From assembly GCF_001921215.1 (NCBI RefSeq), contig NZ_MSIF01000012.1, positions 1 to 64,000 of the forward strand: a stretch of DNA of 64,000 nucleotides, read 5' to 3'. The stretch's first letter is position 1, and each line of letters begins with the position of its first letter. The notes beneath the pieces were generated by a model. That model did not search any database. It worked only from the letters and a program-made list of their open reading frames with translations, and had not been told where the DNA came from. Positions 21,864 through 43,789 of this stretch are shown here, one piece after another. The translations under genes were made by a program, and so were the position numbers. The stretch comes from Actinophytocola xinjiangensis. Its GTDB lineage: Bacteria > Actinomycetota > Actinomycetes > Mycobacteriales > Pseudonocardiaceae.

Positions 21864-22274
21864 TCAGGTGAGGCAGTGGCCGCAGGTGCCGAAGACCTCG
21901 ACGGTGTGGCTCACCTGGGAGAAGCCGTTCTCGGCGGCGACCTTCTCCGCCCACTTCTCGACGGCGGGGCCCTCGACCTCGACGGTGCGGCCGCAGGCGC
22001 GGCAGACGAGGTGGTGATGGTGGTGGCGCGAACAGCGGCGGTAGACCGCCTCACCGCTGTCGATGCGCAGGACGTCGATCTCGCCGGCGTCGGCCAGGGA
22101 CTGCAGGGTGCGGTAGACCGTGGTCAGGCCGATGCCCTCGCCCCGGGTGCGGAGCTCCTCGTGGAGCTCCTGGGCCGAGCGGAAGTCGTCGAGCTGGTCC
22201 AGGAGGCTCGCTACGGCGGCCCGCTGCTTGGTCGAACGCCGGCCCGGCACGGTCGGCGCGGAACGCTCGCTCAT
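21864..22274 (-). CDS. zur: Zinc uptake regulator Zur (FurB), Fur family
   Basis: Zinc-responsive repressor of uptake genes. The 136-residue protein has the Fur winged helix (LTTVYRTLQSLADAGEID, about 50-68), the His-rich metal segment CSRHHHHHLVCRACGR and a second CxxC, CGHC, at the very end; the two CxxC pairs make the structural zinc site. The ATG at 22274 lies 7 bases from GGAGGAGG. It overlaps the stop of the upstream ArsR-type gene by one base (TGATG). That order matches the mycobacterial Rv2358-furB operon, in which SmtB controls zur. Confidence 0.94.
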   Translation of the reverse strand: MSERSAPTVPGRRSTKQRAAVASLLDQLDDFRSAQELHEELRTRGEGIGLTTVYRTLQSLADAGEIDVLRIDSGEAVYRRCSRHHHHHLVCRACGRTVEVEGPAVEKWAEKVAAENGFSQVSHTVEVFGTCGHCLT

Positions 22275-22840
22275 CAACTTCCCTCCTCCACGTGTGCGAC
22301 AGCATCCACCACGATGTGCGCCAGGTGCTCGTCCACCAGGCTGTAGACCACCTCGCGGCCATGTCGCTCACCGCGTACCACGCCGGCTGACTTCAACACC
22401 CGCAGATGCTGGCTGATCAGCGGCTGGGCCACCCCGAGGGCCTCGACCAGCTCGTGGACGCACCGGTCGTGCCGGTGCAGTTCCAACACGATCGCGATCC
22501 GTACCGGGGCGGCCAGGGCGCGCAACAGGTCACCGGCCGCCGACATGACCGCGTTCGGGCGAGTATCACCCGCGTCGACCGGGGAACGCTCGGACGAGTG
22601 CTCGATCGGGTGATCCTCGTCGGTGCGGTCGGTGCGGTCGGTGCGGGTGAGCGGGTCGGGAGAGGACGGGGTCGTTCCCGGGTTCTCGCCAGCGAGGTGA
22701 CTGTGAGCCATGGCGCCGCCACGTTTGGTGGTGGCGGGACGACCGTCGCGGGGGAGCGTTACGCGGCGGCCGCCGGAGGTGTGACCGGCTGGCTGCTCGT
22801 CCGGCTGCGGGGTCGTCCGCGCGACGGCGTCCGAGGTCAC
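22274..22840 (-). CDS. smtB: ArsR/SmtB-family zinc-sensing repressor
   Basis: The winged helix at about 100-175 (LRALAAPVRIAIVLEL, QPLISQHLRVLKSAGVVRGE) and the C-terminal helix VDEHLAHIVVDAVAHVEE with D/H/H/E zinc ligands match mycobacterial SmtB (Rv2358). I start at GTG 22840 because GGGAGG lies 9 bases upstream and the protein then begins VTS like the mycobacterial one. The ATG at 22711 has no ribosome site. This gives 188 residues with a disordered, His-containing N-terminal tail of about 95, longer than usual. Zinc should release it and allow smtB-zur transcription. Confidence 0.88.
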   Translation of the reverse strand: MTSDAVARTTPQPDEQPAGHTSGGRRVTLPRDGRPATTKRGGAMAHSHLAGENPGTTPSSPDPLTRTDRTDRTDEDHPIEHSSERSPVDAGDTRPNAVMSAAGDLLRALAAPVRIAIVLELHRHDRCVHELVEALGVAQPLISQHLRVLKSAGVVRGERHGREVVYSLVDEHLAHIVVDAVAHVEEGS

Positions 22841-22874
22841 GACGCACATCCTCCCGATAGTGGTTACCGTGTTC

Positions 22875-22898
22875 AACATCCTACGGCGTGTGGATGTT
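22875..22898. promoter_or_regulatory. Inverted repeat upstream of smtB
   Basis: Perfect 7-bp arms AACATCC (22875-22881) and GGATGTT (22892-22898) are separated by 10 bp, within 60 bp of the smtB start. ArsR-family repressors bind such dyads over their own promoter, so it is a candidate SmtB operator. A CACTAT -10-like box (22862-22857 on the minus strand) lies just downstream. Confidence 0.5.
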
Positions 22899-22902
22899 CC
22901 GC

Positions 22903-23175
22903 CTAGAGAACCGAGATCGCGATCGCCACCAGCACCCCGAGCACCAGCACGCGACCCGTCCGCTGGGACGGCGACAGCACGCCCCACGTCGCGCTGAGCA
23001 GGACCGCGACACCCGCCGCGAGCGCCCCCAGCAGTAGCGCCCCGGTCATCCCGCGCACCAGCACACCGATGACGAACACCGCGGCCACGACCAGGAACGC
23101 CACGATCGGGGCCACTCTCGCGAGCGGTCCGTCGCCAGGAAGCAGCCTGGCCTTCATTGATCGCTTGCCGCGCAC
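22903..23175 (-). CDS. Small hypothetical membrane protein
   Basis: A 90-residue protein with a basic N-terminus (MRGKRSMKARLLPGDG) and three closely spaced hydrophobic helices covering residues 20-88. GTG at 23175 is preceded by AAGGAGG at good spacing, which supports a real gene. It has no recognisable motif. It is divergent from glyS and co-directional with smtB-zur, but the palindrome between it and smtB argues for separate control. Short actinobacterial membrane proteins of this kind are common beside glyS. Confidence 0.65.
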   Translation of the reverse strand: MRGKRSMKARLLPGDGPLARVAPIVAFLVVAAVFVIGVLVRGMTGALLLGALAAGVAVLLSATWGVLSPSQRTGRVLVLGVLVAIAISVL

Positions 23176-23362
23176 CCGTCCTCCTTCCGGACGTATCAGC
23201 TACACCTAGTAACGGAAACGTGGTGGTAATCGACTCTAATCTGTCACTCGTTCGTGGAACCTGCGGTGGGGATACGCTTTGGCGGCTGTGCCCCGCTGAG
23301 GGCCCGTCGAATGCCCCTATTGAACGCCCTGGCCCCGAGCGCACAGCAGTTGGAGTGCCACC

Positions 23363-24748
23363 ATGCCCGCCGATCGCGTCGAGACCGTCGTCAACCTCTG
23401 CAAGCGCCGGGGCTTCGTCTACCCCTGCGGCGAGATCTACGGCGGCACCCGCTCGGCCTGGGACTACGGGCCGCTCGGGGTGGAGCTCAAGGACAACATC
23501 AAGCGCGAGTGGTGGCGCACGATGGTGCACCGTCGCGAGGACGTCGTCGGGCTCGACTCGTCGGTGATCCTGCCCAAGCAGGTGTGGGTGGCCTCCGGGC
23601 ACGTCACGGCCTTTCACGACCCGCTGGTGGAATGCACCTCCTGCCACCGCCGGTTCCGGGCCGACCAACTCGCCGAGGAGTACGTCGCCCGCGAGGGCAA
23701 ACCGGCCGCCGAGGACAACCTGGTCGACGTGCCGTGCCCGAACTGCGGGGTGCGCGGCCAGTACACCCCGCCGCGCGAGTTCAACATGATGCTCAAGACC
23801 CACCTCGGACCGGTCGAGTCCGAGGAGGGCATGCACTACCTGCGCCCGGAGACCGCGCAGGGGATCTTCGTGAACTTCCTCAACGTGCTGACCACCGCGC
23901 GGCGCAAGCCGCCGTTCGGCATCGGGCAGATCGGCAAGTCGTTCCGCAACGAGATCACCCCCGGCAACTTCGTCTTCCGCACCCGCGAGTTCGAGCAGAT
24001 GGAGATGGAGTTCTTCGTCGAACCGGGCACCGACGAGGAATGGCACCAGTACTGGATCGACGAGCGGCTGCGCTGGTACACCGACCTGGGCATCCGCCGG
24101 GAGAACCTGCGCCTCTACGAACACCCCGCCGAGAAGCTCGCGCACTACGCGAAGCGCACCGTCGACATCGAGTACCGGTTCGAGTTCGGCGGCCTGGAGT
24201 GGGGCGAGCTGGAGGGCGTCGCCAACCGCACGGACTTCGACCTCACCACGCACACCAACCACTCCGGGGTCGACCTGTCCTACTTCGACCAGGCCACCAG
24301 CTCCCGCTACCGGCCGTTCGTGATCGAACCCGCCGCCGGTGTCGGCCGCCCCCTGATGGCCTTCCTGCTCGACGCCTACCGCGAGGACGAGGCGCCCAAC
24401 GCCAAGGGCGGGGTGGACAAGCGGGCCGTGCTGAGCCTGGACCGCCGGCTCGCGCCGGTGAAGGTCGCGGTGCTCCCGCTGTCGCGCAACCCCGACCTGA
24501 CCCCGAAGGCCCGCGACGTCGCGGCCGCCCTGCGCCGCCACTGGAACGTCGACTTCGACGACGCCGGCGCCATCGGCCGGCGCTACCGGCGCCAGGACGA
24601 GATCGGCACCCCGTTCTGCGTGACCGTCGACTTCGACTCCCTCAACGACCAGGCGGTCACCGTGCGGGAGCGCGACTCGATGGCCCAGCAACGCGTCTCG
24701 ATGGACAAGCTCGAGAACTACCTCGGCGGTCAGCTGATCGGCTGCTGA
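23363..24748 (+). CDS. glyS: Glycyl-tRNA synthetase (alpha2 type)
   Basis: Class II synthetase that charges tRNA-Gly. The 461-residue single-chain enzyme has motif 1 around [16 protein letters not shown] and motif 2 [17 protein letters not shown] near residue 200. Motif 3 lies near residue 320 ([20 protein letters not shown]), and an anticodon-binding domain with [11 protein letters not shown] follows. A CxxC pair occurs in the insertion near residues 90-130 ([16 protein letters not shown]). ATG at 23363 is preceded by GGAG. No T-box was seen upstream of this gene. Confidence 0.96.
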
Positions 24749-25257
24749 GAGGCTCTTCCCGGCGGACGCCTCGCTCCAGCGGTGAAGGTCGAGTCCGGAG
24801 CCGAGGGCCCCGGCGGATCGAGTGGTGGCCGGTGGGATGGCCGTGGCGGGGACGGGCTTGCCGTGCTGGTCGTCGACGTGGGGTGAGGTACTGCCGGCGA
24901 GCAACCCGGCTGAACCGGAGGAGAGCCGGTTGTGGCGGTGGTGAGCCGCTGGTCGGCAGCCGCTCGGGCGGTCTGTTGTCGCCGTTGTTCGGGGTCGTGG
25001 TGTTCCGGCGGGGCAGCGCTGGGTGCGTCGGGTGGTGCCGGACGAGGTAAGCGGCCGGGCTGTTGGTGGGACCGGCGTGGATGTGTCCGCGATCCAGTTC
25101 CGGTGGGCCGTGCCGTCGGCGGCGATGGTGCCGCGCGGGTGTCGCGTCGGAACTGGTGTGTGGGCGGGAGACGGCTGGGTGGTGGGCCGGTGGTGTCGGA
25201 GGCCGGGGCCGAAAATTCGGTGCGGTGTTGTGGCCGGCGGTTCTACCCTCCTCGGCA
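24749..25257. other. Gene-poor region between glyS and the T-box
   Basis: About 500 bp with no supportable gene; open frames on either strand are artefacts of base composition. It contains a relative of the GT-rich repeat (24923-24944). Near its end are TGCGGT (25221-25226) and TACCCT (25244-25249), 17 bp apart, a possible promoter for the T-box leader that starts around 25258. Confidence 0.6.
24923..24944 (+). repeat. GT-rich imperfect repeat, copy 4
   Basis: GAGCCGGTTGTGGCGGTGGT, continuing GA, matches the units at 21675-21826 with few differences. A weaker relative, GCCGGGCTGTTGGTGGGACC, occurs near 25053. Confidence 0.45.
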
Positions 25258-25520
25258 ACGCGTTGACGGAGACGAGTAGCGCGGGGAGAACGCGAGTCGG
25301 AGAGAGCCGCCGGTGCTGGGATGGTGGCCTCGCGCCCCACGTGAAGACACTCCTGAGTGCGGGGAGGAACGGCAGACGCCTCATGCCCCGCCGGGTGACC
25401 CCCGTTGTCGGGTCCTGTTGAGGCCGCTGGCTTCCCGCCGGTGGTGAAAGTGCGGTGGCACCGCGAGTTCCCTTCTCGCCCGCACTCCCAAGGGATCGCG
25501 CACGAATCCACCAGGGAGTG
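25258..25520 (+). promoter_or_regulatory. T-box riboswitch, Asp specifier, translational type
   Basis: Stem I: GGAG (25268-25271) pairs with CTCC (25350-25353). The S-turn strands are AGTA (25275-25278) and GAA (25343-25345), directly followed by the specifier GAC (25346-25348, Asp) and the conserved A. AGAGAG begins the distal part, and TGA/TGAG form a kink-turn-like pair. Antiterminator-type element: GTGCGG (25450-25455), bulge TGGCACC (25456-25462), GCGAG paired with CTCGC (25475-25479), then CCGCAC (25480-25485). The bulge UGGC fits a tRNA ending GCCA. CACTCCC (25483-25489) is fully complementary to GGGAGTG (25514-25520), the ribosome site of the next gene. Confidence 0.92.
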
Positions 25521-25522
25521 TG

Positions 25523-26794
25523 ATGATCTCTCGAGTTCTGGCCGCTGACGTGGGTCGACACGTCGGTGAGCGAATTCGGATCGCCGGCTGGGTCCACCGC
25601 CGGCGTGAACTGAAATCCGTGACGTTCGTTCTCGTTCGGGATCGGACGGGGATTGTTCAGGTTGTCGGGGTGGGGAACCTGCCCGACGGGGTGACTGAGG
25701 AGACGCCCGTCGAGGTGGTGGGGTCTGTTGTGGACAGTTCGAGGGCACCTGGCGGGTGTGAGGTCGTCGACGCGGAGTTCACCCTGCTGTCCGAGCGGGC
25801 CGTGCCCGGTCCGTTCGACCTGTACCGGCCCACCGTCACGGCCACGCTGCCCACGGTGTTGGACAACGCCTCCGTCGCCCTGCGGCACCCGCTGTTGCGG
25901 GCGCGGTTCGAGGTCGCCTCGGCCAGCGTCGCCGGGTTTCGGTCGGTGCTCGACGGGCTGGGGTTCGTGGAGACCCACACGCCGAAGATCGTGTCCTCGG
26001 CCACCGAGTCGGGGGCCACCGTGTTCGGGATCGACTACTTCGGGCGGCGGGCCTACCTCGCCCAGTCGCCGCAGTTCTACAAGCAGGCGCTGGTCGGGGT
26101 GTTCGAGCGGGTGTACGAGGTCGGGCCGGTGTTCCGCGCCGAACCCCACGACACCGCCCGCCACCTCGCCCAGTACACCAGCCTGGACGCCGAACTCGGC
26201 TTCGTCACCGACCACCGGGACGTGATGGAGGTACTGCGGGAGGTCGTGGCCGGGATGGCCGGTGCGGCCGCGCGGCTCGTGCCCGACGCCGTTCCGATGG
26301 TGCCGGAACGGATACCGGAGATTCACTTCCAGGACGCGCAGGAATGGCTCGCGCGCGAGACCGACGACGACCCGCGCGGCGAACCGGACCTCGCGCCGGC
26401 GCACGAGCGGGCGCTGGCGGACTGGGCCTGGCGCACCCACGGCTCCGAGTTCCTGTTCGTCACCGGGTACCCGATGGCCAAACGGCCCTTCTACACCCAC
26501 CCGGACCCGGAGCGGCCCGGCTACTCCAACAGTTTCGACCTGCTGTTCCGCGGCGTGGAGCTGGTGACCGGCGGGCAGCGGCTGCACCGCCACGGCGACT
26601 ACCTCGCCGCGCTGCGCGACAGCGGCGCCGACCCCGGGACCTACCGGGACTACCTCGACGTGTTCTCCCATGGAATGCCTCCTCATGGCGGGTTCGCGTT
26701 GGGACTCGAACGGTGGACCGCGCGGCTGCTCGGGCTGGGCAACGTCCGCTGGGCGGCGTTGTTCCCCCGGGACCTGCACCGGCTCACGCCCTGA
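25523..26794 (+). CDS. aspS: Aspartyl-tRNA synthetase, archaeal/non-discriminating type
   Basis: Class IIb synthetase of 423 residues. An N-terminal OB anticodon-binding fold (RIRIAGWVHRRRELKSVTFV) is followed by the catalytic core with motif 1, the flipping-loop-like segment SATESGATVF, then YLAQSPQFYKQ, motif 2 FRAEPHDTARHLAQYTSLD and motif 3 GFALGLERWTARLLGLGN. It lacks the large GAD insertion of ordinary bacterial AspRS, so it is of the archaeal type and may charge both tRNA-Asp and tRNA-Asn. ATG at 25523 follows AGGGAG, which the T-box can mask. A second, bacterial AspRS probably exists elsewhere. Confidence 0.9.
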   Translation: MISRVLAADVGRHVGERIRIAGWVHRRRELKSVTFVLVRDRTGIVQVVGVGNLPDGVTEETPVEVVGSVVDSSRAPGGCEVVDAEFTLLSERAVPGPFDLYRPTVTATLPTVLDNASVALRHPLLRARFEVASASVAGFRSVLDGLGFVETHTPKIVSSATESGATVFGIDYFGRRAYLAQSPQFYKQALVGVFERVYEVGPVFRAEPHDTARHLAQYTSLDAELGFVTDHRDVMEVLREVVAGMAGAAARLVPDAVPMVPERIPEIHFQDAQEWLARETDDDPRGEPDLAPAHERALADWAWRTHGSEFLFVTGYPMAKRPFYTHPDPERPGYSNSFDLLFRGVELVTGGQRLHRHGDYLAALRDSGADPGTYRDYLDVFSHGMPPHGGFALGLERWTARLLGLGNVRWAALFPRDLHRLTP

Positions 26795-26795
26795 G

Positions 26796-27746
26796 TCAGG
26801 CCGCGGCCGGGACCGCCGGACCGGGCTCGGTCAGGGACCGCCGGTAGGCGTCGCGGAGCAGTTCCACGACCCTGGCCGGCTCGTCCCGCAACTGGGTCGG
26901 CGGGGTGTGGATCACCAGGATGCCGGCGGCGGCGAGTCTGTTCGCCGCCGCCAGCGCCGCGTTGACCTGCACCGGTGACGGGTCGAACGAGTAGGACGTG
27001 ATCTCCCAGGCGAGGTTGGCCTCCTCCCACCACGCGTCCGGGGTCGCCAGGTAGCCGCCGGCCGGGCCGGAGACCGGGCTGCGCCACCGGGGCGCCGGCA
27101 GTCCGGCCTTGACGAGCAGCCGGCGCGCCCAGCCGGTGATCAACGCGCTGGCGCCGTCGTCGATCTCGGCGAGGATGCGGTGCGGCAGGGCGGTTCCCCT
27201 GGTTCCGGTGCGGACCAGTTCGACGCGCAGGGCGGCGGGGGAGACCCGGCCATGGCGGATCGCCTCGGACAGCAGGGCGCGGACGTGTTCGGCCGACGTG
27301 GCCCGCCGGCAGGTGTCGACGGTGGCCCTGGCCAGCGGCGCCACCGGGAAACCCGATCTGAGCTGGGGGACCGGCAGCGTGTGGCTGCGTTCGAAGAAGA
27401 CACCGTCGACCAGGCGGGAATGTCGGCGCGGCGGCATCAGCACATGGACCGGGCCGTCGAGACCGGCTGCCCTGAGGCCATGACAGGTGAGGGCGTCGAC
27501 ACCGGTCAGGATCGCGTCCTCGCCGGCGGCGGTGAGCGCGGCCTGGACGCGTTGGGCGCGGGTGGGCGGATCACCGGCGAGCAGCACCAGGCCGGATCGC
27601 AGGTGGCGCCACGGGCCGTCGTCGCTACATCGTTCGGCGATCTCCCTGCCGGACAGGCCGAGGGCGATCAGGTCGGTGGCCGCGGCCACGCGGTGGCGGA
27701 ACAGGGCGGGCAGGGCGTCGAGGTCGAGCAGTGCGCGGTTCGTCAT
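26796..27746 (-). CDS. AbiEi-antitoxin-like / DUF559-type protein
   Basis: A 316-residue cytoplasmic protein. The N-terminal 60 residues resemble the winged-helix start of AbiEi-type antitoxins (LGLSGREIAERCSDDGPWRH, then RSGLVLLAG). The middle carries the LTGVDALTCHGLRA and PVHVLMPPRR segments typical of this actinobacterial paralogous family. The C-terminus (WWEEANLAWEITSYSFDP) resembles DUF559/Vsr-like nuclease folds. Start is ATG 27746. No AbiEii toxin is adjacent; it ends one base from aspS, convergent. A working toxin-antitoxin role is unproven. Confidence 0.6.
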   Translation of the reverse strand: MTNRALLDLDALPALFRHRVAAATDLIALGLSGREIAERCSDDGPWRHLRSGLVLLAGDPPTRAQRVQAALTAAGEDAILTGVDALTCHGLRAAGLDGPVHVLMPPRRHSRLVDGVFFERSHTLPVPQLRSGFPVAPLARATVDTCRRATSAEHVRALLSEAIRHGRVSPAALRVELVRTGTRGTALPHRILAEIDDGASALITGWARRLLVKAGLPAPRWRSPVSGPAGGYLATPDAWWEEANLAWEITSYSFDPSPVQVNAALAAANRLAAAGILVIHTPPTQLRDEPARVVELLRDAYRRSLTEPGPAVPAAA

Positions 27747-27938
27747 GCGGCCAAGCAAACCCCGCCCGGGGGGACCGTGGTGGCGGTCAAGATCAAACTG
27801 TGGACAACCGGTCCGGCTGTGGACAGCCGGGCTTCCACCGGGGGAGAAGAACGAGGATTGTCGGTGGTGGGCGGTAGTGTTCGAGGTTTGCGCCCCGGCC
27901 GGCAACCGTCACCCGCTGAATCTGGAAGGATCGGTCCG

Positions 27939-28604
27939 GTGACCCCCATGGACCCCCGGCCGAGACCGGCGTTCCGGTTCGTGCGCCGCCTGCTGGTCGG
28001 CATCGTGCTCATCGGCGCGCTGGTCGTCGGGGGCACCAGTTTCCGGGTGTGGCAGGTCGCCAGGGTCGACGACCAGACCTCGGCCGACGTCGTCATCGTG
28101 CTCGGCGCCGCGCAGTACGACGGCCGCCCCTCCAAGGTCCTGGAGGCCCGCCTGCGCAAGGCCCGCAACCTCTACGAACAGGGCGTCGCCAAACACATCG
28201 TGACCACCGGCGGGCGCCAGCCCGGCGACGAGTACACCGAGGCCGAGGCCGGCGTGATCTGGCTGACCGGCCAGGGCGTCCCGGAGGACGCGGTGATCGG
28301 CGTCGGCACCGGCCGGGACACCCTCGGCAGCATGCGCGCCGCGGCCGAGGAGGCCGCCGACCAGGGCTGGCGCACCGCGGTGATCGTCAGCGACCCGTGG
28401 CACTCGCTGCGTGCCCGCACCATGGCCGACGACCTGGGCCTGGAGGCGCGGACCTCACCCACCCACAGCGGACCCATCGTCCAGACCAGGGCCACCCAGA
28501 TCCGCTACATCCTGCGCGAGACCGCCGCCCTGCTGTACTACCGAGCCACCCGCGCCCCCGCCGACTGGATCGGCATCACCGAAGATGTCGCCGTCGACAA
28601 GTAG
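27939..28604 (+). CDS. YdcF/SanA-like DUF218 membrane-anchored protein
   Basis: A 221-residue protein with one N-terminal transmembrane helix (LLVGIVLIGALVVGG, about 17-31) and a DUF218 domain: VVIVLGAAQYDGRPSKVLEARL, the TTGG turn, GTGRDTLGSM and VSDPWHSLRA. Relatives include E. coli SanA/YdcF, linked to envelope permeability. The GTG at 27939 has GGAAGGA 9 bases upstream; ATG 27948 is an alternative. It is followed by dgt after 9 bp, so the two likely share a transcript. Confidence 0.88.
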   Translation: MTPMDPRPRPAFRFVRRLLVGIVLIGALVVGGTSFRVWQVARVDDQTSADVVIVLGAAQYDGRPSKVLEARLRKARNLYEQGVAKHIVTTGGRQPGDEYTEAEAGVIWLTGQGVPEDAVIGVGTGRDTLGSMRAAAEEAADQGWRTAVIVSDPWHSLRARTMADDLGLEARTSPTHSGPIVQTRATQIRYILRETAALLYYRATRAPADWIGITEDVAVDK

Positions 28605-28613
28605 CCTCCGGCC

Positions 28614-29906
28614 ATGCCTCCCGGACACGCGCCGACCCCCGGCTACACCGAGCACGACGCGGCGCGCCTGTCCGGCGAACAGGACAAGAGCGCGATCCTG
28701 CCCGACTCCCCGCCGGCCCGCCGCGGCCCGTTCGCCCGCGACCGCGCCCGGGTGCTGCACTCGGCCGCGCTGCGCCGACTGGCCGGCAAGACGCAGGTCG
28801 TCGGCCCGGGGGAGGGCACCGAGGTCGGCGGGGTGCCCAGGACCAGGCTGACCCACTCGCTGGAGGTCGCCCAGATCGGCCGGGACATCGCCGAGGAACT
28901 CGGCGCCGACCCCGACGTCGTCGACACCGCCGGGCTCGCGCACGACATCGGCCACCCGCCCTTCGGGCACAACGGCGAACGCGCGCTGGACATCGTCGCC
29001 CAGCGCTGCGGCGGGTTCGAGGGCAACGCGCAGACCCTGCGGATCCTCACCCGCCTGGAGCCCAAGGTGCTCGGCGAGCGGGAGCACGGCCTGAACCTGA
29101 CCCGCGCCTGCCTCGACGCGACCGCCAAGTACCCGTGGCCGCGTACCGCCGGCACCACCAAGTTCGGGGTCTACGCCGACGACCTCGCCGTGTTCGAGTG
29201 GGTCCGCGACGGCGCCCCGCCCCGGCGGCGCTGCCTGGAGGCGCAGGTCATGGACTGGGCCGACGACGTGGCCTACTCGGTACACGACGTGGAGGACGGG
29301 GTGCGCTCCGGGCGGATCTCCTTCCCCGCGCTCACCCAGCCCGAGGAGCGCACCGTGGTCGCCCACCTCGCCGCCAAGCACTTCAGCGCCGAGCCGCTGT
29401 CCGGGCTGGAGGACGTCGCCGCCGACCTGCTGCGGCTGCCGGCCGTGGCCGCGCTCACCGGCGCCGACTACGACGACTCGCTCGGCGCCCAGGTCGCCCT
29501 CAAACGCCTCACCAGCGAACTCGTCGGCCGGTTCGTCGCCGCCGCGGTCACCGCCACCCGCCGCGACCACGGCGACGGCCCGCTGACCCGGTACGCCGCC
29601 GACCTGGTCGTGCCGGCCAGGGTCGCCGCCGAGGTCGCGCTGCTCAAGGCCGTCGCGCTGCGCTACGTGATGAGCGACCCCAGCCGCCTCGCGCTCCAGG
29701 CCATCCAGCGCGAGTGGCTGGAGTCCCTGGTGGACGCGCTGGCGGCGCGGGGGGCCGCCGCGCTGGAGCCGGCGTTCGTGCCGGCCTGGGAGGCCGCCGG
29801 GGACGACGCCGCCCGCCTGCGGGTGGTGATCGACCAGGTCGCGGAGCTGACCGACGCCCAGGCCGTGCGCTGGCACCGCGTGCACGTCCTCGACCGGTCC
29901 CTGTGA
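28614..29906 (+). CDS. dgt: Deoxyguanosinetriphosphate triphosphohydrolase-like protein
   Basis: HD-domain dNTPase that releases tripolyphosphate from dNTPs, 430 residues. Metal ligands are visible in RLTHSLEVAQ, then AHDIGHPPFGHNGE (the HD pair) and MDWADDVAYSVHD. The N-terminal RTPFARDRARVLHSAALRRL-like segment is typical. In actinobacteria it lies just before dnaG; here a serpin, an AhpD-like gene and a sigma factor are inserted between them. Confidence 0.94.
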   Translation: MPPGHAPTPGYTEHDAARLSGEQDKSAILPDSPPARRGPFARDRARVLHSAALRRLAGKTQVVGPGEGTEVGGVPRTRLTHSLEVAQIGRDIAEELGADPDVVDTAGLAHDIGHPPFGHNGERALDIVAQRCGGFEGNAQTLRILTRLEPKVLGEREHGLNLTRACLDATAKYPWPRTAGTTKFGVYADDLAVFEWVRDGAPPRRRCLEAQVMDWADDVAYSVHDVEDGVRSGRISFPALTQPEERTVVAHLAAKHFSAEPLSGLEDVAADLLRLPAVAALTGADYDDSLGAQVALKRLTSELVGRFVAAAVTATRRDHGDGPLTRYAADLVVPARVAAEVALLKAVALRYVMSDPSRLALQAIQREWLESLVDALAARGAAALEPAFVPAWEAAGDDAARLRVVIDQVAELTDAQAVRWHRVHVLDRSL

Positions 29907-29945
29907 CGTGACACACTCGTGGCACGGCCGACCAGAGGAGAGCCC

Positions 29946-31052
29946 GTGACGGACCGCGCCCAGCTCGCGTTCGCCCTCGCACTGCACCGTGCCACCGCCC
30001 CCGACCCGGCGCGGACCGTGTGCTGGTCGCCGTTCTCGGTGGCCAGCGCGCTCGGGCTGGTCGCCCAGGGAGCGCACGGGCCCACTCGCGACGAGTTGGC
30101 GACCCTGCTGGCGGGGGACGCGACCGCCGACCTGGGCGCGCTGGGCAAGCAGCTGGCCAGGGCCGGTGAGCTGGACGCCGTCCGGGGCGACGAGGACGAG
30201 CCGGTGGTCGCGGTCGCCAACACGCTGTGGACCGACGAGTCGGTCGAGGTGCTGGACTCCTTCGCCGAGGAGCTGGCCAGGTGGTCCAGCGGCCGGGTCC
30301 GCGAGGCGCCGCTGCGCACCGAGCCGGCCTCGGCCCGTGACCTGATCAACCTGGACGTCGCCCGGACCACCCGGGACCTGATCCCCGAGTTGCTCCCGGC
30401 CGACGCGATCACCGCCGAGACGGTGTCCGCCCTGGTCAACGCCCTCTACCTGAAGTGTGCCTGGCGTAACCGGTTCACCGAGGGGGCGACCGAGCCGCGC
30501 CCGTTCCACGCCGTGTCGGGTACCCGCCCGGTGCCGACGATGACCCTGTCCGAGCGGATCGGGCACGCCGTCGTCGACGGCTGGCAGGTGGCGACGTTGC
30601 GGGCGGTCGGCGGGGTCGAGGCGGTGGTGCTGCTGCCCGACGGCGATCTCGCCGAGGCCGAGGCGGCGCTGGACGCCGACACGCTGGCCGAACTGCTCGA
30701 CGCGCCGTCCCCGACCCAGGTCGACCTTGCCCTGCCGAAGCTGGCGGTGACCACCAGGACCGAGCTGACCGGCGCCCTGGAGCGGCTCGGGGTGCGCACC
30801 GTGTTCACCAGGGCCGCCGACCTGAGCGGGATCAGCTCCTCGCCGCTGGCGGTGGAGTCGGTGTTGCACGAGTCGGTGCTGCGGATCGACGAGCAGGGTC
30901 TGGAGGGCGCGGCCGCGACGGCGGTGATGATGCGCCTGGTGTCCATGCCGACCAGGGTCGAGCGGATGACGGTGGACCGGCCGTTCCTGCTGCTCGTGCG
31001 GCACGCGGCGACCGGTGTCCTGTACTTCATGGCGCGGGTCACCGAGCCCTGA
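29946..31052 (+). CDS. Serpin-family protease inhibitor
   Basis: A 368-residue serpin, a fold uncommon in bacteria that traps serine or cysteine proteases by inserting its cleaved loop. The opening SPFSVASALGLVAQGAHG, the breach/shutter region VSALVNALYLKCAWRNRF, and the end DRPFLLLVRHAATGVLYFMARV are hallmarks. The hinge reads DEQGLEGAAATAVMM, close to the inhibitory EEGTEAAAAT pattern but with Leu at P14 and Gly at P12. P1 is probably in the RLVSM segment. No signal peptide is evident, so it would act inside the cell. GTG at 29946 has GGAG 5 bases upstream. Confidence 0.93.
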   Translation: MTDRAQLAFALALHRATAPDPARTVCWSPFSVASALGLVAQGAHGPTRDELATLLAGDATADLGALGKQLARAGELDAVRGDEDEPVVAVANTLWTDESVEVLDSFAEELARWSSGRVREAPLRTEPASARDLINLDVARTTRDLIPELLPADAITAETVSALVNALYLKCAWRNRFTEGATEPRPFHAVSGTRPVPTMTLSERIGHAVVDGWQVATLRAVGGVEAVVLLPDGDLAEAEAALDADTLAELLDAPSPTQVDLALPKLAVTTRTELTGALERLGVRTVFTRAADLSGISSSPLAVESVLHESVLRIDEQGLEGAAATAVMMRLVSMPTRVERMTVDRPFLLLVRHAATGVLYFMARVTEP

Positions 31053-43003: not shown

Positions 43004-43789
43004 ATGGCGACACGAGACAGCAAGGACCCGGACCTGGAGCGCAGCCTCACGCTGCTGTGGTCGGGACGCCCCCAGGGCCGGCGCGGCCCGCGACCACGGC
43101 TCACCGTGGACGGCATCGCCCGGGCCGCGGTCGAGGTCGCCGACGCCGAGGGGATCGAGGCACTGTCCATGCAGCGGATCGCCACCGAACTCGGCTACTC
43201 GACGATGTCGCTGTACAACCACGTCCCCAGCAAGGACCTCCTGCTGGAGGTGGCCGCCGACATCGGCGCCGGACCACCCCCCGACATCGGGGACCCCGAC
43301 GACTTCCGGCCGGCGGTGCGCCGCTGGGTCGCCGCGCTGTGGGCCGGCTTCCGGCTCCGCCCCTGGATGCTGCGCGTCCCCTTCGACCACGCGCCCGTCG
43401 GCCCCCACCAGCTCGCCTGGCTCGACCGGCTGCTGCGTCCCCTGCTGGCCGCCGGCCTGAGCGGTCGCCAGGCGCGGGTCGCCGCCCTGCACCTGACCGC
43501 CGTCGTGCGCGGCACCGCGCAGATCAGCCTGAGCCTGGCCGCCGTCAACCGGACCGACGACGGTGTCCCGCGCTCCGACGCCGACCTGGCCAGGATCCTC
43601 ACCGGGTTCCTCGACGAGCGGGACTACCCGGCGCTGACGGCCGTCTACACCGCCGAACTGGCCGGGGACACCGCCGCCGACACCGCCGACGAGGACCCGC
43701 TCCCGTTCGAGCTGGGTTTCGGCGTCGACCGCTTCCTCGACGGCGTCGAGTCCTGGGTCGCGGCGAACCGGCCGGGCGCCGATTCCTAG
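43004..43789 (+). CDS. TetR-family regulator with TetR_C domain
   Basis: A 261-residue repressor. The HTH is LSMQRIATELGYSTMSLYNH (about 60-80), preceded by an unusually long basic N-terminal arm (RPQGRRGPRPRLTVDG), and the TetR_C ligand domain follows. ATG 43004 is chosen; ATG 42971 is an in-frame alternative. It shares a spacer with the DUF2306 gene and overlaps the MFS gene, convergent, by 4 bp. It may control both. Confidence 0.88.
   Translation: MATRDSKDPDLERSLTLLWSGRPQGRRGPRPRLTVDGIARAAVEVADAEGIEALSMQRIATELGYSTMSLYNHVPSKDLLLEVAADIGAGPPPDIGDPDDFRPAVRRWVAALWAGFRLRPWMLRVPFDHAPVGPHQLAWLDRLLRPLLAAGLSGRQARVAALHLTAVVRGTAQISLSLAAVNRTDDGVPRSDADLARILTGFLDERDYPALTAVYTAELAGDTAADTADEDPLPFELGFGVDRFLDGVESWVAANRPGADS

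Follow-up and report, generated by a model that had tools for sequence, protein, structure and literature searches.

What controls a second aspartyl-tRNA synthetase (AspRS) in an actinobacterium whose genome also encodes a bacterial enzyme? The question arises at one locus in a stretch of 64,000 nucleotides (nt) from Actinophytocola xinjiangensis (contig NZ_MSIF01000012.1, positions 1 to 64,000), hereafter the window, in which the gene aspS2 (25523 to 26794) encodes an archaeal-type AspRS (AspRS2) of 423 residues with an ATG start. The gene and all leader features described below lie on the forward strand. An original prediction, made from the letters alone, held that the leader is a T-box by which uncharged tRNA-Asp opens the ribosome site of this gene. 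From sequence comparisons and predicted folds we conclude, with a probability of about 0.93, that a translational tRNA-Asp-specific T-box controls a second, archaeal-type, and probably non-discriminating AspRS. Related loci (L) and genomes (G) are cited by our own numbers where they need to be told apart.

A T-box leader upstream of aspS2

The leader aligns with the T-box model RF00230 at 25254 to 25486 over the full model (1 to 219) with 60.9 bits; genome-wide (9.5 Mb), it has an E value of 3.2e-12, the better of two matches. A gathering-level Rfam scan of the window returned two tRNAs and no T-box because the score lies under the Rfam gathering score of 93, and the T-box surfaces in E-value mode. 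RF00230 also matched relatives, at 7 of the 10 loci of one set and 13 of the 14 of another (25.7 to 73.5 bits), and all 21 matches at such loci besides the window (7 + 13 + 1) stay under the same cut-off. The second match in the genome (48.3 bits, also under 93) has, by eye, an ultrashort Stem I (CCGG-CCAUCA-CCGG) and precedes an open reading frame (ORF) that we read by eye as isoleucyl-tRNA synthetase (IleRS). When both strands of the window were searched, the T-box motif and the specifier-strand motif each occurred once, at the leader.

Every element named in the original prediction was found where it had been placed. Stem I is long, with a K-turn-like base (25265 to 25357), and is drawn from the RF00230 alignment and from helices 1 to 5, which covary over 21 leaders. 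Its helices pair 25268-25271 with 25350-25353, 25279-25286 with 25335-25342, 25291-25296 with 25329-25334, and 25306-25311 with 25323-25328, and the tRNA-elbow loops, or interdigitated double T-loop motif (IDTM), are AGAGA (25301 to 25305) and GCTGGGA (25315 to 25321). The IDTM and K-turn labels follow PMC7583486 in part. The S-turn strand GAA (25343 to 25345), which lies opposite ACGAGTA (25272 to 25278) and is invariant in the 21-leader alignment, runs directly into the specifier GAC (25346 to 25348), A (25349), and the helix strand CTCC (25350 to 25353). Stem II (25359 to 25391; GCGGGG, 25359 to 25364, with CCCCGC, 25386 to 25391) carries the S-turn strand AGGAAC, and its helices 6 and 7 covary. 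The Stem IIA/B pseudoknot (25392 to 25414; helices 8 and 9) pairs CGG with CCG (25392-25394/25402-25404) and GACCC with GGGTC (25397-25401/25410-25414), the latter becoming GGCCC/GGGCC in L118. The RF00230 alignment places the Stem III region, which varies in length among relatives, between GAGG and AAA (25420 to 25449).

The antisequestrator (25450 to 25485) consists of helix A1 (GTGCGG, 25450 to 25455, with CCGCAC, 25480 to 25485) and helix A2 (GCGAG, 25463 to 25467, with CTCGC, 25475 to 25479), between which sits the T-box bulge TGGCACC (25456 to 25462), as had been claimed. An ultrashort Stem I would carry the specifier in its terminal loop; the window leader instead has a long Stem I with tRNA-elbow loops, unlike the ileS-like T-box of the same genome, which is ultrashort.

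The RNA probably starts near 25256, a start site that follows from a -10-like element, TACCCT (25244 to 25249), of the form TANNNT, conserved in position before long-Stem-I leaders. TANNNT occurred in the 47 nt before all 70 such leaders and in 2 of 70 control windows 100 nt further upstream, and 69 of the 70 matches begin 19 to 24 nt before the reference point. A search for a sigma-70 consensus promoter found none.

An alignment of homologous leaders had been set beforehand as a check on the T-box identity. Of 72 long leaders, 70 were usable, 24 remained after a similarity filter of 0.82, and 21 were aligned, with L008, L040, and L045 left out for their odd length. Counted against a 51-pair structure drawn from the window leader itself with RF00230 as a guide, 93.4% of 1,038 cells were paired and 26 of the 51 pairs change on both sides. 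None of 500 shuffles reached any of five covariation measures, and sliding the partners by 1 to 3 columns lowered the paired fraction to 41 to 52%. Antisequestrator helices 10 and 11 are paired in 100 and 98.1% of cells, with compensatory changes, and the IIA/B pseudoknot helix in 91.6%; helix 3 is the weakest (71.2%). That the leader is a chance resemblance or a decayed, functionless T-box remnant, as its score under the Rfam gathering score might suggest, is barely credible. The covariation already contradicts it, as do the T-box found at 83 of 86 fetched loci, the agreement of specifier and gene described below, and the intact coding frame of AspRS2. RF00230 alignment, covariation, and specifier-gene agreement together back the T-box identity that had been proposed.

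ARAGORN additionally called a transfer-messenger RNA (22097 to 22485) and a tRNA-Gly(acc) (43651 to 43726) in the window; neither has a gathering-level Rfam match, and both are probably spurious.

The Asp specifier and a Ser counterpart

GAC was the specifier in all 72 machine-read long-Stem-I leaders before AspRS2. The genome encodes its own tRNA-Asp(GTC), whose anticodon GUC fits the GAC of the window leader; the G that follows its acceptor stem (read by eye) is complementary to the UGGC bulge (25456 to 25459). A clostridial comparison raises the alternative that the T-box senses tRNA-Asn and feeds tRNA-dependent asparagine synthesis with GatCAB. The enzyme matches an 'aspartate--tRNA(Asn) ligase' model, GatB is present and no asparaginyl-tRNA synthetase (AsnRS) scores over cut-off, and at the 11 clostridial AspRS2 loci where a T-box motif occurs, 7 leaders read AAC and 4 are unreadable. 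We consider this alternative highly improbable given the 72 of 72 long leaders with GAC, the same GAC read by eye in 11 ultrashort loops, and the absence of AAC among the leaders read in the actinobacterial AspRS2 clade. A switch serving asparagine synthesis was rejected on the specifier GAC.

The strongest evidence on specificity is a natural co-switch of specifier and gene. A scan of 394 class genomes with a specifier-strand pattern gave 11 matches: 9 at AspRS2 loci, 1 UCC leader before a seryl-tRNA synthetase (SerRS), and 1 match (L198) discarded as chance, to which RF00230 gives no support. A control with the pattern reversed gave a match in one genome. Over half of the class genomes in which AspRS2 is known went undetected by the scan. 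The first TCC leader scores 62.8 bits with RF00230, and the ORF behind it matches serS with 326.3 bits (cut-off, 301.65). As this score, from the one SerRS scanned, is little above the cut-off, it suggests a SerRS of a divergent kind.

A Stem I model was then built from this TCC leader together with 20 GAC leaders and run against 394 genomes of the family to which G225 belongs; at an E value of 1e-4 or lower it hit 84 places in 70 of them, and all 84 were fetched. The family is probably Streptomycetaceae, because Streptomyces and S. cattleyicolor plasmid records bear the same leader. By tblastn, all 58 GAC leaders among the 84 were followed by a same-strand AspRS, in 57 cases starting 138 to 369 nt after the specifier (L234 gave a partial match only); the best match of the AspRS was to the main clade for 21 and to a second clade for 37. 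A same-strand SerRS followed 18 of 21 TCC leaders, the exceptions being L269, with a 42-residue SerRS remnant, and L243 and L266, where no SerRS was found. The remaining five model matches (L287, L288, L290, L291, and L292; 30.8 to 72.1 bits) had an unreadable specifier, and no synthetase was seen beside them. Among the bulges read, those of GAC leaders were UGGC (44), UGGU (12), and UGGA (1), and those of TCC leaders were UGGC (17) and UGGA (1). Other specifiers may be missed because the model favors GAC and TCC. The Asp assignment of the original prediction is thus borne out by its retention in relatives, its switching together with the gene, and the matching tRNA of the genome.

At L293 (5750 to 9835; G1407:C1, reverse strand), a UCC-type T-box with SerRS and a GAC-type T-box with AspRS lie about 2.7 kb apart, a small cluster of T-box-controlled synthetases that adjoins an L-asparaginase and four Nudix proteins. 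ORFs beside the T-box SerRS at L295 (10276 to 15566) and L301 (4370 to 9555) resemble, by eye, Nudix, carbamoyltransferase, aldo/keto reductase, and radical SAM proteins; the two loci share families 19 and 27 to 30 there, and the neighborhood is perhaps a nucleoside-antibiotic cluster. Near the SerRS of L295, L297, L298, and L300, the N termini of ORFs resemble, by eye, Arg, Glu, class I Lys, and Ala synthetases.

Predicted translational output

The original prediction had noted that CACTCCC (25483 to 25489) is complementary to GGGAGTG (25514 to 25520); the actual sequestrator is longer, pairing CGCACUCCC (25481 to 25489) with GGGAGUGUG (25514 to 25522) in nine pairs, one of them G-U. This predicted hairpin (CGCACTCCC/GGGAGTGTG; 25481 to 25522) folds at -22.5 kcal/mol with a z score of -4.5, a stability reached by 0 of 200 shuffles, and buries the ribosome site GGGAG (25514 to 25518). 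Sequestrator and antisequestrator are mutually exclusive because the CGCAC of the A1 3' strand is common to both. In computed folds of the 3' part, which exclude the energy contributed by tRNA, the OFF state reaches -35.0 kcal/mol versus -27.4 kcal/mol for the ON state with the antisequestrator enforced, so that without tRNA, OFF is preferred by 7.6 kcal/mol.

Homologous leaders were consulted through their pairing of anti-Shine-Dalgarno and Shine-Dalgarno (anti-SD/SD) strands, with 9-nt tails and assigned starts (81 leaders, of which 7 were dropped for want of an assignable start, leaving 74 usable and 56 unique). The leaders' own duplexes averaged -8.19 versus -7.44 +/- 0.19 for permuted partners, a value reached in 0 of 2,000 permutations. 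TTTTT did not occur between T-box and start in any of 70 leaders, and the single terminator-like site found for the window leader falls inside the coding region, at 25706. An exclusive ribosome-site hairpin without a terminator, as predicted folds give here, is what marks a translational T-box; sequestrator stability, OFF preference, the permutation test, and the missing T-run all agree with the output originally proposed.

That the same RNA acts by transcription antitermination rather than on translation is very improbable for the window leader, in view of its stable ribosome-site hairpin, its terminator-like site lying only within the gene, and the 70 of 70 leaders free of a T-run up to the start. 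A relative from Anaerolineae (L097) does have a hairpin and then TTTTTT after its T-box, and the family can therefore be transcriptional elsewhere.

Several observations weigh against a translational Asp-specific T-box at aspS2. The 60.9 bits of the leader fall below the Rfam gathering score, and the T-box was not found at 3 of the 86 close loci (L160, L144, and L027), although at L027 the match to the enzyme begins at residue 88, so that the 5' end is outside reach. In the permutation test just 36 of 56 leaders pair better with their own partner than with the mean of swapped partners, and the sequestrator pairing is weak or absent in homologues such as L019, L138, L163, and L165 to L168. An earlier swap test with 12-nt tails found the own partner better than the swapped mean in 47 of 81 leaders, which is uninformative because the AAGGG part dominated. 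Moreover, kinship of the sequences inflates both the shuffle and the permutation tests, and the structure counted for covariation is taken from the window leader itself.

The enzyme and its genomic setting

AspRS2 scores 505.9 bits against NF003483, 'aspartate--tRNA(Asn) ligase', whose cut-off is 353. Against the narrower TIGR00458 it reaches 327.6 bits, under the cut-off of 368.4; the sequence may therefore be said to work like a non-discriminating enzyme, with membership in that equivalog uncertain. Pfam matches are limited to the OB fold and tRNA-synt_2 (class II core), with no GAD domain among them. The nearest solved structure by sequence is Thermus thermophilus AspRS2 (1n9w), with whose H and P residues H25 and P76 align; 1b8a and 3nel have W and K there. 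We take these two positions to govern tRNA discrimination. The product of aspS2 is probably non-discriminating. The sequence thus carries Thermus-like non-discriminating residues, yet the specifier of its switch is a codon for Asp and not Asn.

The genome has four tRNA-synt_2 matches: a bacterial AspRS (NF001750, 847.4 bits), AspRS2, an asparagine synthetase A-like protein, and an EpmA/LysRS-like protein. It encodes GatB once and no AsnRS over cut-off. Together with the NF003483 match, the separate bacterial AspRS upholds the view that aspS2 encodes a second, archaeal-type enzyme. Among 26 chosen carriers (25 of the main AspRS2 clade and G182 of the second clade), all encode a full bacterial AspRS that scores above the TIGR00459 cut-off, and none encodes an AsnRS that exceeds the cut-off of TIGR00457. 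PMC4206432 describes an additional AspRS in Actinomycetales, most of them lacking AsnRS, and one Amycolatopsis that has AsnRS.

In the window (21867 to 31052), aspS2 stands between a gene for an HGTP-anticodon/tRNA-synt_2b protein (23363 to 24748), read as GlyRS, and one for an HD-domain phosphohydrolase, read as a dGTPase, from which an ORF without a Pfam match separates it. A FUR-family gene lies further upstream of the GlyRS-like gene and a serpin gene (29919 to 31052) downstream. The arrangement suggests an insertion among housekeeping genes. Elsewhere in the genome, the asparagine synthetase A-like gene (G000:C10; L003, 1465 to 2451, forward strand; NF005052, 466.7 bits, cut-off 368) adjoins an ORF read as methylaspartate mutase, and the pair is maybe part of a natural-product cluster.

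Distribution and evolution of the leader

Relatives of AspRS2 were found in 33 of 394 class genomes at an E value of 1e-60 or lower, 12 of these being only 35 to 40% identical, and at 1e-120 in 67 of 390 genomes of the organism's own family and 97 of 341 of another; within its genus, two of the six genomes listed carry AspRS2. Up to 30 loci were fetched per search of this kind, along with the best 80 of more than 589 relatives, and the census describes these fetched loci. The 86 close loci comprise 85 close homologues and L028, and 83 of them have the T-box, 81 with the strict motif and 2 with a variant (L039 and L042). Among 79 distant loci, 11 have the strict motif, all clostridial. An Asp T-box on a second AspRS, which the original prediction had regarded as unusual, is therefore present at aspS2 without being an isolated oddity, as many Actinomycetota genomes share the leader.

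Eleven relatives (L015, L018, L022 to L026, and L041 to L044) have an ultrashort Stem I, a minimal hairpin whose loop holds GAC, with the form NNU-GAC-RNN in all except L015. This class rests on reading by eye because the hairpin script ranked other hairpins first for L015, L026, L041, and L043; for L025 and L196 it chose a smaller loop around the same GAC. In Chloroflexota the same leader was present at two of four fetched loci (L039 and L097) and was not seen at L102 and L103.

The cassette was also found on plasmid records. At 30 AspRS2 loci, no neighbor family besides AspRS2 itself (recovered in 29) occurred at four or more; clustering of these neighborhoods, with two-locus families outside its listing, gave two trios, apparently congeneric. 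On the S. cattleyicolor megaplasmid (L195, 5001 to 5975), AspRS2 loses homology after about residue 325, as if frameshifted, and its T-box leader looks intact. Two matches to a CRISPR direct repeat (RF01340) lie less than 1 kb from the aspS2 leader of L128 (3821 to 3931).

In a 62-row tree, midpoint rooted for drawing only, the leader-bearing actinobacterial sequences and two Chloroflexota rows form one clade with 100/100 support, on the clostridial side and apart from six archaeal rows. Of the Chloroflexota leaders, that of L097 (Anaerolineae), with GAC, a long Stem I, and its hairpin and T-run, looks transcriptional, and that of L039 has a long hairpin and no T-run. L015, with an ultrashort Stem I, is sister to the long L019 with full support and apart from the remaining ultrashort rows, so parsimony applied by eye suggests that Stem I was shortened on two or more occasions; L045, a long form, falls inside the ultrashort group, where its position is weakly supported (95/72). 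Two loci, L028 and L194, fall in another AspRS clade, and L028 is 39% identical to AspRS2 of the window (P0001). Over 269 nt, the leader of L028 nonetheless shares 81% identity with the leader of L195, a member of the main clade on the S. cattleyicolor plasmid. The leader thus sits on two non-orthologous AspRS clades: either a leader moved, or the gene behind it was exchanged.

Proposed mechanism and role

By analogy with the T-box mechanism as established (PMC7583486), uncharged tRNA-Asp very likely opens the ribosome site. While tRNA-Asp is charged, the default fold (GUGC/GCAC, A2, and the 9-bp hairpin) is predicted to bury that site. When uncharged tRNA-Asp builds up, its anticodon would pair with GAC, its elbow would dock against the long Stem I, and its 3' end, GCCA, would pair with UGGC, stabilizing the antisequestrator, which would withdraw the CGCAC half of the sequestrator and free the ribosome site. 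Newly made AspRS2 would then recharge tRNA-Asp and close the loop. AspRS2 might accordingly serve as a stand-by synthetase, on only when the housekeeping bacterial AspRS falls behind, for instance under inhibition. Failure or poisoning of the bacterial AspRS would fit better than aspartate shortage because a second synthetase cannot cure a shortage.

A more specific proposal is that the cassette is an immunity device that replaces a bacterial AspRS poisoned by an inhibitor of the cell's own or a neighbor's making, a serious possibility that we would place a little below an even chance. It would suit the different lineage of AspRS2 from the housekeeping enzyme, the patchy distribution, the plasmid occurrence, the lack of widely shared neighbors, and the use of the same leader, with UCC, before SerRS. 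The albomycin cluster encodes an additional, resistant SerRS, and microcin C inhibits AspRS (PMC12525621). Against the proposal, adenylate-type inhibitors could strike both types of AspRS, and the 30 AspRS2 neighborhoods have no biosynthetic genes in common.

Broader still, and offered as a conjecture that we would rather bet against, is a modular, horizontally moving stand-by-synthetase switch. A long-Stem-I T-box would have passed between unrelated synthetase genes with its specifier following the gene (Asp, Ser, and perhaps others), its output changing from transcriptional to translational between Chloroflexota and Actinomycetota, and would activate inhibitor-tolerant spares. If the stand-by idea is true, such leaders point to spare synthetases and thereby to possible inhibitors of synthetases; if the modular switch is true, they would mark undiscovered synthetase-targeting antibiotics.

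Comparison with known systems

The aspS2 leader is best classed as a T-box whose specificity, target, and evolutionary setting are new. No description of the Asp and Ser leaders was found in the accessible portions of the literature searched, which mostly excluded subscription journals and supplements; TBDB, the T-box database, scanned Actinobacteria (PMC7778990) and may list members. For Actinobacteria, ileS is named as a translational T-box target in PMC1262725, repeated in PMC2494555, and histidine genes too are named as T-box targets in PMC9413887. A long Stem I alone is not new because PMC7583486 notes a few such translational T-boxes. The present family adds Asp and Ser switches and offers a natural specifier swap on one backbone (GAC before AspRS, UCC before SerRS). 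For one gene and one tRNA it also shows Stem I in natural forms that range from long to ultrashort, and it has a transcriptional-looking relative, so that the loss of the elbow-binding Stem I in translational T-boxes becomes a testable question.

Among related systems, the second AspRS of T. thermophilus (1n9w) is likewise archaeal-type and non-discriminating. A clostridial AspRS2/GatCAB T-box is reportedly due to Saad (2012, 2013), and actinobacterial translational ileS T-boxes are said to have been treated by Sherwood (2015). The clostridial system shares a T-box on a related second AspRS (the 11 T-box loci are 39 to 47% identical) and differs in its specifier, AAC (Asn), at 7 of the 11 loci, with 4 unreadable by pattern. 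The ileS T-boxes share the phylum, sequestration of the ribosome site rather than a terminator (PMC1262725 and PMC7583486), the antisequestrator, and Stem II with its pseudoknot, and one precedes the IleRS-like ORF of the same genome; they differ in reading Ile and, for the copy in this genome, in having an ultrashort Stem I, whereas the aspS2 leader combines GAC, a long Stem I, and a non-housekeeping synthetase. The albomycin-cluster SerRS (PMC12525621, in whose text the word T-box has 0 occurrences) is likewise a second, divergent synthetase in Streptomyces, and the SerRS genes behind TCC leaders may be of this sort. The class I LysRS T-box of Bacillus cereus (PMC2916919) also precedes an extra synthetase of another lineage, differing in that the enzyme serves Lys and the host is a Bacillus.

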